From Calditrichota bacterium (lineage in GTDB: Bacteria; Calditrichota; Calditrichia; Calditrichales; J004): a stretch of DNA of 52,061 nucleotides. A program made the position numbers and the translations under genes. The stretch lies in the NCBI GenBank assembly GCA_003696775.1, contig RFFS01000080.1, forward strand, positions 1 to 52,061. Reading direction: 5' to 3'. Below, piece by piece: positions 4,306 through 32,720 of this stretch. Each line of letters opens with the position of its first letter. The first letter of the stretch is position 1. The notes beneath the pieces were generated by a model. That model was not told the origin of the DNA. It ran no database searches and worked only from the letters and a program-made list of their open reading frames with translations.

Positions 4306-5454
4306 TCACCCTATCGTTTTTAATATGGAACGGATTCTATGAAAGACCACATTGCCAAGCCCTTTCACGGCTATCGCGGCATTGGGCCGGACGATTTGCT
4401 TTAAATAAGCCAGTAATTGATTGACATCATCCACATGAACCACTTCCCTGTCCGGCGCGGGTATCAAACGTGCACCTTCACCGATAAACCGGGCGTAATG
4501 CCCCAGTGTTATTAAATAATCAAATGGCAGGGCCGCCAGAAAATGCCCCATGTTCAGATGACGGTCAGCCACATTCACCCCCGTGCCATGCATATCCCCC
4601 ACAATAAAAATAAGGCGGGATGCATGCGGTTTGAACCCGATCAACGAACGAGCGGCCTTGCTAACCGCCCGGCTGGAACCATGAAAACTTTCATCCAACA
4701 GATAAATACCGTTGATCCGCTCCAGATTGCCGCGTCCTTTGGGCATGGTGAAACGTTCCCGCAAAACGGATACAATGGTATCCACGGTAATATCAAGCGG
4801 TGTCAGCACGGCGCAGGTGGCCAAAAAAGCGTAGATATCGGAAACACTGTACAAAGGCAGGCGCACCTCCTTTTGGCCGTTTAATTTAAAGGACAAACCA
4901 TCCGGCCCCCTTTGCTCGATATGGGTAGCAAAATAGTCGGAAGCCTGATTAAGCCCGAACTTAAGAACCGTGGCATCGGTGATGAACTGGCTTAGCGAGG
5001 TACTCAGATCATCATCATGGTTGAGTACGGCCGTACCGGAACGCGCCAGGTACTTCACCACCGCCGAACGCTCCAGGGCAAGCCGCATGGCATCATCAAG
5101 ATAGCTGAGATGCGCGTCGCCGATATTGGTCACCACGCCGATATTGGGTTTGATCAACCGAAGTAATCCTGCAAAATCCTTGCCACTGTAGGAATCGAAT
5201 TCAAAAATGGCGTAATCATAGTCCGCGGACAACCGTTGCAGAGTTTTTAGGTTATTATTCCAGCTCCCCTTGCCGTGTGGGGTGCGCAAAACTTTCCCAC
5301 GTTCGGACAATACGGTGGTCAGCATCTCCGACAAAGTGGTTTTACCAAGATAGCCGGTTATACCGATAACAGGACCGTTGAAACGTCTTCGGAGATAAAC
5401 GTAATGCCGTTTTTCCTGGATTGTTAATCGGGTGCGTTGGTGATTTTCCTTCAT
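4306..5454 (-). CDS. Mur-ligase family protein, MurF-like but lacking the N-terminal substrate domain
   Basis: A 382-residue ATP-dependent ligase of the Mur/FPGS family. The P-loop is GITGYLGKTT (31-40), and the family block TNIGDAHL and the NHDDD segment follow; the C-terminal third matches the Mur ligase C-terminal Rossmann domain (IFIVGDMHGTG). It is about 70 residues shorter than MurF and starts almost at the P-loop, so the domain that holds the UDP-sugar in MurE/MurF is absent. By eye the lysine that is carbamylated in MurF (AKGE) aligns with arginine here (LERSA). It may therefore use another acid or amino substrate; MurT-like or cyanophycin-type ligases are alternatives. It is the first gene of the minus operon and is divergent from the amidase at 5589. 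Confidence 0.75.
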   Translation of the reverse strand: MKENHQRTRLTIQEKRHYVYLRRRFNGPVIGITGYLGKTTLSEMLTTVLSERGKVLRTPHGKGSWNNNLKTLQRLSADYDYAIFEFDSYSGKDFAGLLRLIKPNIGVVTNIGDAHLSYLDDAMRLALERSAVVKYLARSGTAVLNHDDDLSTSLSQFITDATVLKFGLNQASDYFATHIEQRGPDGLSFKLNGQKEVRLPLYSVSDIYAFLATCAVLTPLDITVDTIVSVLRERFTMPKGRGNLERINGIYLLDESFHGSSRAVSKAARSLIGFKPHASRLIFIVGDMHGTGVNVADRHLNMGHFLAALPFDYLITLGHYARFIGEGARLIPAPDREVVHVDDVNQLLAYLKQIVRPNAAIAVKGLGNVVFHRIRSILKTIG

Positions 5455-5588
5455 ACAGACGAAAAATTTACACCTTCAACCCGAAGCAATCAAATGGAAT
5501 TCATCCAACGGCGTTATTCCTTAAATTCGTATTGCTTCATTGGATGATTTTCCATAAGATTGTTTTAATCGCCAACCCGGTATTTTTT

Positions 5589-6431
5589 ATGCGCATATCC
5601 GGTCATTTACTCGAAGATATCACCGTTGTAAACAGTCCTAATCACGGCGCGGCTTTCAAAAAAGGCCGGCCGGATACGATTGTCATCCATTATACCGCCT
5701 CCGCCACGGGTAGTCAGGCTATACGGACGTTAACCAATCCGCGCGTCAAGGCTTCCGCCCATGTGGTAATTGATCGTGACGGCAGCCTGACCCAACTGGT
5801 ACCGTTTGACACCATCGCCTGGCACGCCGGTTCCAGCGCCTATCGGAACCGCAAGGGGCTCAATCGTTACAGCATCGGCATTGAGTTGGTAAATGCCGGC
5901 TGGCTGCGCAAATCCGGCGAAGAGTATATATCCGACTTTGGGCGGGTTTACCCGCGGGAAGAAGTTATTTACGCCGTGCATGCCAATCCCGATGTGCCCT
6001 TTGTGTATTGGCATAAATATACCGATGCCCAACTGGATGCCGCCGAATCCTTATGCGCCCTGTTAATCGACACCTATCCCATTCGTTTTTTATTAGGACA
6101 TGATGAAATTGCGCCGCAACGCAAACAGGACCCGGGTCCGGCTTTTCCACTGGATGATTTCCGTCGCCGATTATTGGGCATGGGCGTGGACCTCCATCAG
6201 GATAAGGGGCCGGAAACGCTTCCGGTTACGGCATGGGTAAGCGCTACCAAATTGAATATACGTGAAGCGCCCTCTCTGAAGGCAGCCAAAGTGGCGCGGC
6301 CCTTAACCTTTAACCAGGAAGTCACCGTCCTGGAACAACAGGGTGACTGGCTGCGTGTTTCCACCCGTTTAGAGGGCTGGGTACACAGCGATTATGTTCA
6401 AACACCTTCCAAAGGGAAAAACAGCGTATGA
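5589..6431 (+). CDS. N-acetylmuramoyl-L-alanine amidase (AmpD/Amidase_2) with SH3 domain
   Basis: A zinc amidase that cuts the bond between N-acetylmuramic acid and the L-Ala stem. I choose ATG 5589 (280 residues); the frame is open to 5421 but that part overlaps the divergent Mur-ligase gene. With this start the AmpD-type residues are in place: zinc ligands H34 (VIHYTAS), H171 (LLGHDE) and D181, with K179 two residues before it as in AmpD, and E99 in SIGIEL. Residues about 208-270 are a bacterial SH3 domain (LNIREAPS, WLRV, GWVHSDYV). No clear signal peptide is seen, so it is either cytoplasmic or released by another route. It overlaps the next gene by 4 bases (ATGA) and heads a six-gene cassette. 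Confidence 0.9.
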   Translation: MRISGHLLEDITVVNSPNHGAAFKKGRPDTIVIHYTASATGSQAIRTLTNPRVKASAHVVIDRDGSLTQLVPFDTIAWHAGSSAYRNRKGLNRYSIGIELVNAGWLRKSGEEYISDFGRVYPREEVIYAVHANPDVPFVYWHKYTDAQLDAAESLCALLIDTYPIRFLLGHDEIAPQRKQDPGPAFPLDDFRRRLLGMGVDLHQDKGPETLPVTAWVSATKLNIREAPSLKAAKVARPLTFNQEVTVLEQQGDWLRVSTRLEGWVHSDYVQTPSKGKNSV

Positions 6432-6823
6432 AAAAATATCTGTTGCTTTTCGTGATAGTGTTAATACTGGGTCTTGTCATATATTTGGATGTCAACGGCC
6501 TGGTTACCTGGCAACCGCTGGCCATGGCGCTGGCCGCCATTGCCGCACCGTTCCGCTTTATCTGGAACGCGCTCACCAGTACACCCGCGGAGATTCGTGC
6601 GCGACACGCTTCGCTGCGCCAAAAGGAAAAACTTTACCAGGATAAACTGGAAAATGCCATCGGTCGCCGTGAAGCCCGCATCCAACAACTGGACGCTTCC
6701 CTGGAACGGCTGCAAAAGGAACTGGACAGATTGGAACGCCAACGCGCCGAAATTGAAACCGAGGTCAATCGGATGAACGCGGAAGAAATCAAACGGGCCG
6801 TATGGAAATACGCCGGACGCTAA
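6428..6823 (+). CDS. Small membrane-anchored coiled-coil protein
   Basis: The 131-residue product has one N-terminal hydrophobic segment (about 4-21, LLLFVIVLILGLVIYL) and a second weaker one near 30-47. It then has a long charged coiled coil (about 55-120, rich in E, R, Q and L in heptads). I do not recognise a family. Its ATG lies inside the stop of the amidase gene, so translation is coupled. The layout, a membrane anchor plus a periplasmic or cytoplasmic rod, recalls inner-membrane spanin-like proteins next to endolysins, but that is only an analogy of form. Confidence 0.7.
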   Translation: MKKYLLLFVIVLILGLVIYLDVNGLVTWQPLAMALAAIAAPFRFIWNALTSTPAEIRARHASLRQKEKLYQDKLENAIGRREARIQQLDASLERLQKELDRLERQRAEIETEVNRMNAEEIKRAVWKYAGR

Positions 6824-6836
6824 CGGGACATAGTGT

Positions 6837-7169
6837 ATGATATTTCGACTTTCCGCTTTTTTTATGCTTTTACTTTGCATAGCCTGTCAACCGGCTCTCA
6901 CAACGTACCTGTCTCCCGGCGCTTCGTATCAAAACAACGGTGATGAAGACAGTTATATCGTTCTTATTAAAAAGCTGCCGCCACAGGACCGCTTCCAAAA
7001 CTGCCTGAAGGACACAGTGCGGGTTTTGGCCGACCGGCGTTTGTTGTACCTTTATTTACAAGAACAATTGCATGAAAAAGAATGGGAATGGGCCGAAAGC
7101 AAATTGAAAGTATTGGATGCGGCCATTGAAAAACAGGAGGCGGCACTGCAAAAGCTGAAAAAACCATGA
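6837..7169 (+). CDS. Small predicted lipoprotein
   Basis: The 110-residue product has a short basic start, a hydrophobic core (FFMLLLCIAC) and a lipobox LCIAC ending at Cys17, which predicts a lipid-anchored mature protein. The mature part has a short Ser/Asn/Asp stretch, then a helix rich in Glu and Lys (about 65-108) likely to form a coiled coil. The family is unknown. It lies 13 bases after the preceding gene and overlaps the following one by 4 bases (ATGA). A small lipoprotein between membrane-anchored coiled-coil proteins fits a cell-envelope complex. Confidence 0.75.
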   Translation: MIFRLSAFFMLLLCIACQPALTTYLSPGASYQNNGDEDSYIVLIKKLPPQDRFQNCLKDTVRVLADRRLLYLYLQEQLHEKEWEWAESKLKVLDAAIEKQEAALQKLKKP

Positions 7170-7603
7170 AATCACTTTGTCTTTTATTTACGCTAATTCT
7201 TTTGACGCCCATGCTGAGAGCACAGGAGGTCACCTTTCCCATACCGCTGATCCCCGGAGACCGCTTTACCATTCAATCGCAATACGATGGCGTGCCGGTG
7301 GATACTTTATGGCTGCTTAAAGACAGCCAATTGCGTCGGTTTATCGTCCGTTCCATAAAGCAGGAAGTGGACAGCATGCGGGCGGATATCCTGACAAAAC
7401 AGGTGGCGCTTTATCGCCAAAAGACCGAACAGATGGACCAGATCATCCGCCTAAGCAAGGAAGGCTATGAGCATTATAAATCCTTATGGTTGAAAACCGA
7501 TCAACAACTGGAGGAGGCGGAAATACGCGCCGATCGGAATTTAAAATGGGGTTTTGCCGCCGGAATCGTTGTTTCCGCGGCACTGGTAATTTTAATTAAA
7601 TAG
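7166..7603 (+). CDS. Exported coiled-coil protein with a C-terminal membrane anchor
   Basis: The 145-residue product has an N-terminal signal peptide (CLLFTLILLTPMLRAQ, cleavage likely at about A19-Q20). A short region of about 45 residues follows that may be a small beta domain (PLIPGDRF, YDGVPVDTLWLLKD). Next is a helical coiled-coil stretch (about 50-120) and a final transmembrane helix (about 127-144, WGFAAGIVVSAALVILI). The body would sit in the periplasm, held in the inner membrane by its C-terminus. I recognise no family. Its start overlaps the lipoprotein stop, and the next gene follows after 8 bases. Confidence 0.7.
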   Translation: MKSLCLLFTLILLTPMLRAQEVTFPIPLIPGDRFTIQSQYDGVPVDTLWLLKDSQLRRFIVRSIKQEVDSMRADILTKQVALYRQKTEQMDQIIRLSKEGYEHYKSLWLKTDQQLEEAEIRADRNLKWGFAAGIVVSAALVILIK

Positions 7604-7611
7604 AGGCCACC

Positions 7612-8106
7612 ATGAACGATACCAACGATGTACTGCTTTCCATCGGGCAAACGCTTTTTGATCACGCCTATACCATTATGCTCTATTGGCTGATCGCCAT
7701 GTTTGTCCTGTTTGTTGCCCTGCTTTTACGATATACCTTTGGGCTGGGCTTCGATAAAGACAATCCTAATCCGCATATCAACGAAACCTTTGCCATGCCG
7801 CGCGGTGTGTTCCGCGGCCTGATAACGCTGACCCTGTTGTTTTTGGTGACTCTGGTGGAGGTAATCAATTTAAGCATGCCCTTTTTAAATAACGGGGAAC
7901 TCATTGGCAAACTGGTGGGTGAACATTTCTTTTTTCCGGCGGATCGTAATCATGATCTGATGACCGCTTTTCAAATGATGCTGGCTTTTTATTTCGGCAG
8001 CAAGGTGATGCATCATATCACCAGCACGGATAAGCAAAAAACGGAGTTAATGGTTCAGGCCATGGAATCGGAAAATGATTTTGGCAGCGGGGACGCCCGG
8101 GGATGA
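7612..8106 (+). CDS. Small polytopic membrane protein
   Basis: The 164-residue product has a good ribosome site (GAGG, 5 bases before ATG). It has two clear transmembrane helices (about 20-42 and 66-85) and a weaker third near 120-138 (MMLAFYFGSKVM). The segment between the first two holds MPRGVFRGLITL, like the 'LPRGxxRALIAL' pattern I have seen in uncharacterised bacterial membrane proteins; this is a memory, not a search result. It has no enzymatic motif. It could be the membrane pore or scaffold of the cassette. Its stop overlaps the start of the last gene of the cassette (ATGA). Confidence 0.7.
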   Translation: MNDTNDVLLSIGQTLFDHAYTIMLYWLIAMFVLFVALLLRYTFGLGFDKDNPNPHINETFAMPRGVFRGLITLTLLFLVTLVEVINLSMPFLNNGELIGKLVGEHFFFPADRNHDLMTAFQMMLAFYFGSKVMHHITSTDKQKTELMVQAMESENDFGSGDARG

Positions 8107-8468
8107 ATGTTTTGGAACGCCCCGCAACCACATCCCGTTTTTTTGAAGGGAAGCTGGACCGCCTATTTTTCTGGATCAGCCTGCTGGCCCTGGGACTGTT
8201 GCTGTTCTTAACTATCTGGCGTCAGCAGCAGATCAACCGCGCGCAAAACGCTTACGAAATTCTTCAGGAACATCACAACGCCCTGCTTGGCCAATTGGAA
8301 CAATTGCGCGTTGTTCTGGCCCGTCAGGAGACACGTATCCGCAAATTGGAAGAAGCCGCCAAACGCGCCCAAGGGCATTCCCAGCCGGTTACGCGCCCCT
8401 CCATACGACAAAAAAAGCCTTTAAAGGACGCCCGCTCTCTTTTCCTGAAATATTCCGGTCAACCTTAA
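8103..8468 (+). CDS. Small single-pass membrane protein with coiled coil
   Basis: The 121-residue product has about 20 N-terminal cytoplasmic residues, one transmembrane helix (about 23-40, FFWISLLALGLLLFLTIW) and a coiled coil (about 43-90, with LEQLRVVLARQETRIRKLEE). It ends in a basic Pro/Lys/Arg-rich tail. I do not recognise it. It is the last gene of the six-gene plus-strand cassette; its stop lies in a short AT-rich hairpin and only 7 bases separate it from the end of the convergent DUF983 gene. It is similar in plan to the product of 6428-6823, so these two may be partners. Confidence 0.7.
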   Translation: MNVLERPATTSRFFEGKLDRLFFWISLLALGLLLFLTIWRQQQINRAQNAYEILQEHHNALLGQLEQLRVVLARQETRIRKLEEAAKRAQGHSQPVTRPSIRQKKPLKDARSLFLKYSGQP

Positions 8469-8482
8469 GCTAAACTTAGCTT
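8467..8482. terminator. Short hairpin between convergent genes
   Basis: AAGCTA (8467-8472) and TAGCTT (8477-8482) form a 6-bp stem with a 4-base loop, exactly between the stop codons of the last cassette gene and the DUF983 gene. The stem is AT-rich and the flanking T run is short, so it would be a weak terminator for either strand. Confidence 0.3.
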
Positions 8483-8805
8483 TCTTCGGTAATATAATCC
8501 ATATACATCCAGATGCTGCGCGCGTAGCGGAAAATCAAAGGCACGGCAAACAGACTGAACCCGCCCAAAACAAGTGCGATTTTCCATACCGGTTCGTCTA
8601 TGGCCGCCATAATTAAAATGGTGGGGGCGACGATCAGGCCGTATAAAAAGTTGCCGATAAATATGGCCGCTGTAAAATAGCCCTGCTCTTTTTCATATTT
8701 ATATCCGCATTGGGGGCAGTTTTCATACATGGAAAAAAGTCCTTTAAACTGTTTACCCTCTTCACATTGCGGGCATTTCAGCGTCATCATAGAAGAAAAA
8801 CTCAT
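8476..8805 (-). CDS. DUF983 family membrane protein
   Basis: The 109-residue protein has two zinc-ribbon-like knuckles at the start (KCPQCEEG near 10-17 and NCPQCGYKYE near 29-38), followed by two transmembrane helices (about 48-68 and 74-91). This order, CPxCxxGxxF then CxxCG and two helices, is the DUF983 signature. The function of the family is not established. It starts 12 bases after the phosphatase gene ends, with AAGGAT before the ATG, so it belongs to the same operon as the BNR protein and phosphatase genes. Confidence 0.85.
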   Translation of the reverse strand: MSFSSMMTLKCPQCEEGKQFKGLFSMYENCPQCGYKYEKEQGYFTAAIFIGNFLYGLIVAPTILIMAAIDEPVWKIALVLGGFSLFAVPLIFRYARSIWMYMDYITEES

Positions 8806-30839: not shown

Positions 30840-32720
30840 TTATTTTGGTTCCCGCCCGTTCAAAATCGATGTCAATATAGAGCGAAAGGCACTTTCCGCA
30901 AAGGTGTGGATCACAGTCGGGCCTTTTTGTTCCACTCGCGCGGGTTCTTTTGACGCGGGACTTATATGAATGATGTATCGGAATACACCGATCATCTTCC
31001 CCACTTCATTTTCCTGTATCCAAAGTGGATGTATATCCAAAGAATCTCGCAACAGGGTTCGGAATTCCCTGCTGCCGGCCCAGGCTGTTTGTGTATCCCA
31101 TATAAGCGGCGGGCGATGAAAAACAGGAAGTCCGATATACATCGGATCATCGTTTCGGGGGCTTTCCAACAATATCGCTCCGGAACGGGGTATTATGATT
31201 TCAATCGAATCCGCCTCTTCCGGATTTAACTGGAATGCCCGGCAGATGGCAACGGACTGGCTTTTGGAGCTGCCCACACGTTTTTTACGCGCGGATGTAG
31301 CCCATAATCCATGTTTATCCAGGGCAAATATTTCCACCCATAGCGGAGAACCTTTCACGGTATCCGCGTCCCTGCCCTGCGTATCATAAAGACGACAAGT
31401 ATGTGCGTTGGCGTGGGTTGTCGTCCTGGGTAAATATAACCGGATGCGCCTGTCTTCGCCCGGGGAAGGTGCCGGGGTGTTATTGACTATTAATCCTTCC
31501 GCAAGGTCCCGTGTTCTAATGGATAGCTGCCAGCGTTTCCCTTTCAGTAAAAATTTACCCCTGTAGGCACCATATTCCAGTTGCAGGGCACGCCAAATCA
31601 ATGGAACATGCACCGCAATATCATCCGCTTTATTTTGCCAGCTTACCGTATGGTATTCGGGATGATATAAAGGAGCGGCCGCCGGAATGCATGCCAGATG
31701 CCCCTTTTTTTTATTCCATTCCAGACGGATATGTTTGTCCACTTTTAATTTTATTAGACCGGGAATGGTTATCCGGGTGAATTGTTTGCCGCCGGCGGAA
31801 TAAACACCGGCTTTAATGCGACTATTACAAAATTCCACAATATATGGCGTCGCATCACGGTTCATCTCAACAGTCAGCGCATCGGATGTTTCCCTGTAAT
31901 AGATTTTATCCGTCCAGTCACGCATGGCAAGCAACAGCGGCTTGTGGGCCGGTGCGACGCAATGTAACAATTTTTCCCACAGGTGCCTTGTCCACCATGG
32001 ATTGTAATGTATAACGGTTAGGATGAACGGGATCAACCGCGGATCATTGTTCCGCCACATTTTGGGCCACAGCCGTTCACAGGCCGGTAAGGCCAGCCGG
32101 TTCCAAAAATCTTGCATGGCCTGCTTCGATAACAATTCCACGGGCTCCATCGTGCGCGAGGTATCCAGCGCGGAAGCCATTACCCGGTTGTACAGCTTGT
32201 CCAGTAAGGAATCGTTCAGTCCCTTATGCCGTTGTACAAATGCCTGGAACCACGTTTCTTCAAAACGATTCAGCCAGGCGCGGTCGTGGGTGCGAATTTT
32301 AGACAGCGGATGCGCGTTTCGGCTTTCTTCCAGATAGAGGGCAAGTTCCGGGATATCTTTCGTATGTAAACAGGATAAAAAACCGGATGCGCCGGCATCC
32401 AATTGTGTAATATTCTGCTTTATGGCAAGACGGTCGGCAATATGTTGATCATCACTTAACACAAAAGCGGCTCGCGGGGTTTCCAGGATTTCCACGCGAC
32501 TCGAGTTAGCGTGTCCTGTTGTTAAAACCCAGTTGGTTTGCGGTATCAGGCTGTGCGCGCAGCCTTGCAACAAAGAGGGATTGAAAAACTCGTAAAAACT
32601 TGTCGATGTGTAATGAGAAACCAAAGGCACCATTGCCGCCCGACCGGATAACGGACGGGTGAAATTGAGCGCCTGCCGGATATGTTGCAGATAAGAAGGG
32701 ATATCGAGCGTTTGTTTCAT
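30840..32720 (-). CDS. Large soluble protein of unknown function coupled to rseP
   Basis: A 626-residue product that I do not recognise. It has no signal peptide and no transmembrane helix. Residues about 1-230 are mostly helical with many Trp, Leu and His; 300-580 look beta-rich (FCNSRIKAGVYSAGGKQFTRI, RIRLYLPRTTTHANAHTC, SIEIIIPRSGAILLE). There are few cysteines and no enzyme motif. Its ATG overlaps the rseP stop by one base (TAATG), so it is made from the same message. The frame is clean across 1.9 kb, so it is a real gene. It might serve RseP or the envelope response, but that is only context. Confidence 0.8.
   Translation of the reverse strand: MKQTLDIPSYLQHIRQALNFTRPLSGRAAMVPLVSHYTSTSFYEFFNPSLLQGCAHSLIPQTNWVLTTGHANSSRVEILETPRAAFVLSDDQHIADRLAIKQNITQLDAGASGFLSCLHTKDIPELALYLEESRNAHPLSKIRTHDRAWLNRFEETWFQAFVQRHKGLNDSLLDKLYNRVMASALDTSRTMEPVELLSKQAMQDFWNRLALPACERLWPKMWRNNDPRLIPFILTVIHYNPWWTRHLWEKLLHCVAPAHKPLLLAMRDWTDKIYYRETSDALTVEMNRDATPYIVEFCNSRIKAGVYSAGGKQFTRITIPGLIKLKVDKHIRLEWNKKKGHLACIPAAAPLYHPEYHTVSWQNKADDIAVHVPLIWRALQLEYGAYRGKFLLKGKRWQLSIRTRDLAEGLIVNNTPAPSPGEDRRIRLYLPRTTTHANAHTCRLYDTQGRDADTVKGSPLWVEIFALDKHGLWATSARKKRVGSSKSQSVAICRAFQLNPEEADSIEIIIPRSGAILLESPRNDDPMYIGLPVFHRPPLIWDTQTAWAGSREFRTLLRDSLDIHPLWIQENEVGKMIGVFRYIIHISPASKEPARVEQKGPTVIHTFAESAFRSILTSILNGREPK

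Follow-up and report, generated by a model that had tools for sequence, protein, structure and literature searches.

The 52,061-nucleotide contig RFFS01000080.1 of a Calditrichota bacterium (the window) carries, at positions 5589–8468, six open reading frames, p1 to p6, which probably form a lysis cassette for cytoplasm release that belongs to the host itself, has a captured phage-type endolysin at its core and resembles in plan a type 10 secretion system (T10SS). The window belongs to a 3.25-Mb draft genome (G000) of 97% completeness. The genus has three further genomes (G016, G017 and G018); all four contain the cassette, and their completeness is 85–97%. For comparison within the phylum we used 36 further Calditrichota genomes, including those of a sister genus, and the cassette proteins were compared with family profiles from Pfam, NCBIfam, PADLOC and PHROG.

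The product of p1 contains an Amidase_2 domain (PF01510, 1.3e-31) and an SH3_3 domain (PF08239, 7.5e-12), in agreement with the amidase with an SH3 domain seen in the first-pass annotation of this DNA, and its PHROG match is an amidase assigned to lysis (5e-40). It is 54% identical to a protein of a 130-kb viral contig, scores 225 bits against an IMG/VR contig and 100–164 bits against phages of the Roseobacter group, sphingomonads and rhizobia, and retrieves some alphaproteobacterial plasmid and chromid records at 110–129 bits. The similarity to Roseobacter-phage endolysins (38–39% identity) extends over the full length, SH3 included, with 99% of the length covered. Among the other Amidase_2 loci of Calditrichota, 4 out of 25 reached an E-value of 1e-3 against p1, the best of them with 29 bits. 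The nearest solved structures are AmpD, the best match, and AmiD, at around 72 bits, and p1 stays under the AmpD equivalog cut-off (106 versus 143 bits). Residues H34, E99, H171, K179 and D181 are invariant in an alignment of eight sequences; they are the counterparts of the residues that bind zinc and catalyse the reaction in AmpD. The start codon at 5589 is correct, with a stop two to three codons before the same ATG in three relatives, and p1 shows neither a signal peptide nor an N-terminal hydrophobic segment. Judged by its sequence, p1 is a phage-type endolysin and not a housekeeping amidase of the phylum; kept in the cytoplasm because it lacks a signal peptide, it should depend on a holin for its release.

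The genes that accompany p1 relatives point in the same direction. Five small genes come after the endolysin in Phaeobacter phage MD18, and the final three of them encode a two-helix membrane protein, a protein similar to inner-membrane spanins (i-spanins), with an N-terminal transmembrane (TM) segment and a coiled coil, and, from an overlapping gene, a lipoprotein similar to outer-membrane spanins (o-spanins) that matches an Rz-like PHROG (4.5e-4). Phages DSS3_MAL1 and RcXuper share this layout, and in Citromicrobium and Erythrobacter phages an i-spanin-like gene is found directly behind the endolysin. Inspection of the IMG/VR contig (L066) revealed no holin- or spanin-like set around the amidase. 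The window cassette thus resembles those of MD18, DSS3_MAL1 and RcXuper in having an endolysin related over its full length and then five small genes; however, no sequence similarity was found between the small genes of these phages and p2–p6, and the phage cassettes have tail genes as neighbours within a phage genome.

The nearest cellular relative of p1 outside the genus, an ortholog from G014 with 51% identity, is encoded directly behind a GTA_holin_3TM gene (8e-24; GTA, gene transfer agent). This locus (L027:2510-6630, contig C367) contains in a row genes for a patatin-like phospholipase, a TM-CBS protein, the 3TM holin and the amidase, and downstream of it are genes that, from reading their sequences, we assume to be thrS, infC, rplT and a pheS-like gene; the row might be a separate lysis module with a phospholipase. 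Chromosomal GTA_holin_3TM genes also occur at unrelated sites in five other Calditrichota genomes (L043–L047, in G019, G020, G006, G028 and G033), and three of the five adjoin a wall hydrolase, either a muramidase with three SH3 domains (G019) or a GH108 protein (G020, G006). Like our cassette, the holin/hydrolase pairs of G014, G019, G020 and G006 are orphan lysis-type genes among chromosomal genes; unlike it, they have a holin of family PF11351 and lack recognised spanin-like genes, whereas the genus of the window has five unrelated genes. Pfam searches found no PF11351 match in p5 or anywhere in the genus and, because no genome of the cassette-bearing genus has the 3TM holin, p5 and/or p2 may fill its role. 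Together, the cytosolic phage-type endolysin, the phage relatives heading similar cassettes and the G014 ortholog behind a GTA-type holin favour the endolysin/holin/spanin plan, one of the two suggested by the first-pass annotation.

The whole six-gene set is maintained, with the same order, in the window and in G016, G017 and G018, and so throughout the genus. Identity to the window proteins is 63–66% for p1, 54–55% for p2, 35–36% for p3, 61–62% for p4, 63–65% for p5 and 46–48% for p6. The ratios of non-synonymous to synonymous substitution rates (dN/dS) between G018 and G016 orthologs are 0.16, 0.32, 0.24, 0.07, 0.09 and 0.38 for p1 to p6, respectively, p4 and p5 being the best conserved of the small proteins. 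With all values well below 1, the six genes are real and under purifying selection. The conservation of gene order, proposed earlier as a check in relatives, therefore holds within the genus and not beyond it, since the set is absent from the 36 other genomes of the phylum, where searches with p5 and p4 gave nothing convincing. The cassette is hence known from a single genus, and this restriction, among the genera searched, limits its reach. Cellular genomes beyond the phylum were covered by one search with p5 as the sole query. In the sister genus, the same pair of genes as on the right flank is present, without the cassette behind it and with a lipoprotein gene in that place.

As the first-pass annotation had anticipated, none of p2 to p6 has a match in Pfam, NCBIfam or PADLOC above the curated cut-offs or beyond coiled-coil noise; their putative holin and spanin roles are suggested by topology, gene position and weak matches to Rz profiles. 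In p5, a positive loop between the first two hydrophobic segments predicts an N-out/C-in orientation, and three segments in this orientation are the topology of class I holins. The loop between the hydrophobic segments of p2 is uncharged to acidic, predicting an N-in/C-in hairpin and a cytoplasmic coiled coil; as two-helix N-in/C-in proteins are class II holins in topology, p2 could be class II holin-like or a lysis regulator. Its C-terminus, KRAVWKYAGR, is conserved. A cysteine closes the N-terminal hydrophobic segment of p3 in all orthologs, and the p3 and p4 genes overlap by four bases. The AlphaFold model of p4 displays, after a small hairpin, one continuous helix over residues 53–144 (block pLDDT 75–86 over most of it), with no meaningful structural match in BFVD; that of p5 is helical, with low confidence (pLDDT 54), and too poor for a structure search. 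For p6, the best PHROG matches, albeit weak, are to Rz-like spanins, with values of 5.6e-4 and 1.7e-3 for two families; its G016 ortholog again matches phrog_89 (9.9e-4), and the values for the G018 ortholog are weaker (0.03–0.07). Among the topologies first assigned to these proteins, two need small corrections: p2 looks like a two-helix hairpin whose coiled coil is cytoplasmic and not like a single-pass protein, and p5 has three hydrophobic segments.

Two candidate relationships of these proteins were discarded. A profile match of p2 in G030 (3.7e-8) corresponds to a TM and coiled-coil protein of another size and context, pointing to chance coiled-coil similarity, and p2 has no convincing homolog outside the genus. 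The matched protein (L063:2393-3362, contig C164 of G030) has a glycine-rich C-terminal hydrophobic segment, is encoded behind a small gene and is perhaps envelope-bridging. Likewise, a likeness in motifs, noticed by eye, suggested p5 as a diverged 3TM holin; hhalign gave nothing for it, and we do not claim this relationship.

In the proposed mechanism, p1 would be made and held in the cytoplasm until a holin-like protein, most likely p5 with p2 as a possible partner or regulator, makes an opening in the inner membrane or depolarises it. The endolysin would then reach the wall, bind to it through its SH3 domain and cut stem peptides, and the outer-membrane lipoprotein p3 would, together with the inner-membrane proteins p4 and/or p6, join or tear the outer membrane in a spanin-like manner. 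The cell, or a fraction of the cells, would as an outcome lyse or release its cytoplasmic contents in the way of a T10SS. A cytosolic endolysin encoded beside envelope proteins makes sense if such a membrane-opening step frees it, and both phage lysis and T10SS follow this scheme.

The cassette is comparable to the T10SS represented by ChiWXYZ of Serratia and YenLC of Yersinia entomophaga, which are also bacterial, non-prophage clusters combining a wall hydrolase without signal peptide with small membrane proteins and lipoproteins. It differs from them in its hydrolase, which is an amidase with SH3 instead of an endopeptidase, in having six genes instead of four, and in lacking a recognised holin or spanin family and a known cargo or regulator. 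A T10SS lies outside prophages, has a holin in its cluster and usually, though not always, a pair of spanins, and is required to release a cargo protein of the cytoplasm or periplasm; in our cassette, p5 and p2 are candidates for the holin by topology, and p3, p4 and p6 for the spanins. Most descriptions of T10SS-like lysis systems owned by the host come from enterobacteria. Those of Y. entomophaga and Serratia marcescens release proteins by the lysis of specialised cells (PMC10847048), and a 2026 paper reports non-lytic T10SS secretion for Salmonella (PMC13284979), so our cassette might work with or without lysis. A full-text literature search found no paper naming both Calditrichota and holin. 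The kind of system is known, and what is new in the literature and data searched are the phylum, the choice of enzyme and the five unrelated partner genes.

Several observations weigh against a lysis cassette of the host. The holin and spanin roles of p2–p6, as read from their sequences, are without proven homology: searches of phages and viral contigs gave nothing credible for p2, p4, p5 or p6, p5 has no homologs in phages, plasmids or viral contigs, and a comparison of p5 with the 3TM holin (PF11351), made with shallow profiles, gave an hhalign probability of 0.4%. The Rz matches of p6 could be mere coiled-coil similarity, the more so with the weaker values of the G018 ortholog. Also, p4 and p6 have no conserved periplasmic cysteine; two-component spanins usually have periplasmic cysteines (PMC6139136), and their absence speaks against an ordinary spanin pair. 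The potentially bridging proteins (p3, p4 and p6) outnumber the needs of a standard spanin set and, finally, the operon contains no cargo gene. A more specific version of the hypothesis, that p2–p6 are a new and independently evolved holin and outer-membrane-disrupting set, not derived from known phage lysis families and built around the captured endolysin as the release system of the genus, is possible, and we put it forward tentatively.

The phage-type endolysin and the cassette-like layout would also suit the remnant of a decayed prophage, with a lysis module that is intact because decay is recent and that has no role for the host. This is already largely refuted by the selection data, and we consider it very unlikely: gene order is kept in four species with proteins 35–65% different from those of the window, the six genes are under purifying selection, and there are no portal, HK97 capsid or sheath genes in the four genomes of the genus, with chromosomal genes at both sides of the cassette. 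The previous description of the system as chromosomal, with no phage genes nearby, is thus right for the neighbours and extends, for these three families, to the genus. Slightly less improbable, yet still poorly favoured, is a module that releases a separate particle encoded elsewhere in the genome, such as a GTA, a tailocin or an extracellular contractile injection system, because such particles exit through holin/endolysin lysis and another Calditrichota family has contractile systems. In that family, the contractile sheath (PF04984) was found in four genomes (G029, G030, G031 and G034), whereas it is absent from all four of the genus; with sheath, portal and HK97 capsid genes missing from genomes that are 85–97% complete, this is possible only for a particle without these families or encoded in the missing sequence. 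There, G030 and G034 have clusters similar to contractile injection systems, composed of sheath, tube-like and baseplate-like genes (L064, L065), with sheath matches also in G029 and G031; a link of our cassette to contractile systems was rejected for the genus, which has no sheath.

Several coiled-coil membrane proteins and a lipoprotein could also bridge the inner and outer membranes as a standing envelope machine, for wall remodelling or as part of a wall-piercing secretion or injection device, with the amidase as a component and no lysis. We regard this as unlikely, although better placed than the other alternatives, because, lacking a signal peptide, the amidase cannot be part of such a machine unless it has an exit from the cytoplasm, because p1 is similar to phage endolysins and not to AmpD or AmiD, and because there are no secretion or injection genes near the cassette; together with the absence of a contractile sheath from the genus, this leaves the wall-piercing device, which the first-pass annotation offered as its other plan, without support. 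Least probable of all, to a point where we give it hardly any weight, is that p1 is a cytosolic AmpD for wall recycling that is co-transcribed by chance with unrelated envelope genes: such an enzyme would be an Amidase_2 protein without signal peptide, and AmpD is the best solved-structure match, but p1 carries an SH3 wall-binding domain and does not reach the AmpD equivalog cut-off, another, shorter Amidase_2 is present in every genome of the genus, and the four-base overlap of p1 and p2 in the window and the gene order preserved in all four genomes speak against chance. A lysis cassette owned by the host remains our preferred reading.

The six genes are on the same strand (Table 1) and their junctions, from p1 to p6, are −4, +13, −4, +8 and −4 bases, that is, three four-base overlaps, one gap of 13 bases and one of 8; the tight arrangement and the position reported initially, with gaps of at most 13 bases, were reproduced in full. 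The cassette is flanked on both sides by ordinary chromosomal genes, outside any prophage. Because the Mur-ligase gene on the left points away and the DUF983 gene on the right runs into the cassette, the layout suggests one compact operon with its own transcription unit. In the four-genome alignment of the region upstream, TTGC and TA-G-TT columns of a promoter-like element recur with similar spacing to the ATG, and the pattern alone is not rarer than chance within the window (2 found versus 2.6 expected).

Table 1. Features of the cassette and of its immediate surroundings in the window.
Feature	Position	Strand	Description
Mur-ligase gene	4306–5454	−	Left neighbour, divergent from the cassette
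Upstream region	5500–5588	+	Promoter-like TTG-N20-TANNNTTG match at 5532–5562, shared in part by relatives
p1	5589–6431	+	Endolysin-type N-acetylmuramoyl-L-alanine amidase, Amidase_2 and C-terminal SH3_3, no signal peptide
p2	6428–6823	+	Two hydrophobic segments (~4–22, 24–49), then a charged coiled coil (from hydropathy and charge)
p3	6837–7169	+	Lipoprotein, Cys17; mature protein of ~94 aa with helical C-terminus; candidate o-spanin
p4	7166–7603	+	Signal peptide, periplasmic rod and C-terminal membrane anchor; candidate inner-membrane spanin subunit
p5	7612–8106	+	Polytopic, hydrophobic segments ~21–39, 69–89 and 116–134; candidate holin
p6	8103–8468	+	Cytoplasmic N-terminus, single N-terminal TM (21–39) and periplasmic coiled coil; candidate i-spanin
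DUF983 gene	8476–8805	−	Right neighbour, convergent with the cassette

The right flank, with DUF983 and histidine phosphatase genes, is common to the four genomes, and on the left the window is unlike G016 and G018. In the window (4306–5588), Mur ligase and OmpA-DUF4398 genes are the left neighbours; in G016 and G018 (L029:5854-7506), their place is taken by a lipoprotein gene and one similar to glutamine amidotransferases. A variable left and a constant right neighbour suggest a rearrangement breakpoint on the promoter side of the cassette. Elsewhere in the window (30840–32720), a 626-aa open reading frame without Pfam match is located between a tRNA-Met and an M50 site-2 protease gene.

In all, the cassette points to T10SS-like, host-owned lysis in a little-studied phylum. 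Should p2–p6 work as holin and spanins although no homology is recognisable, new families of membrane-breaking proteins would be added by them. The chromosomal holin/hydrolase pairs of Calditrichota make a more general point than the cassette of one genus, and their repeated occurrence across the phylum suggests that programmed release may be widespread outside Proteobacteria.

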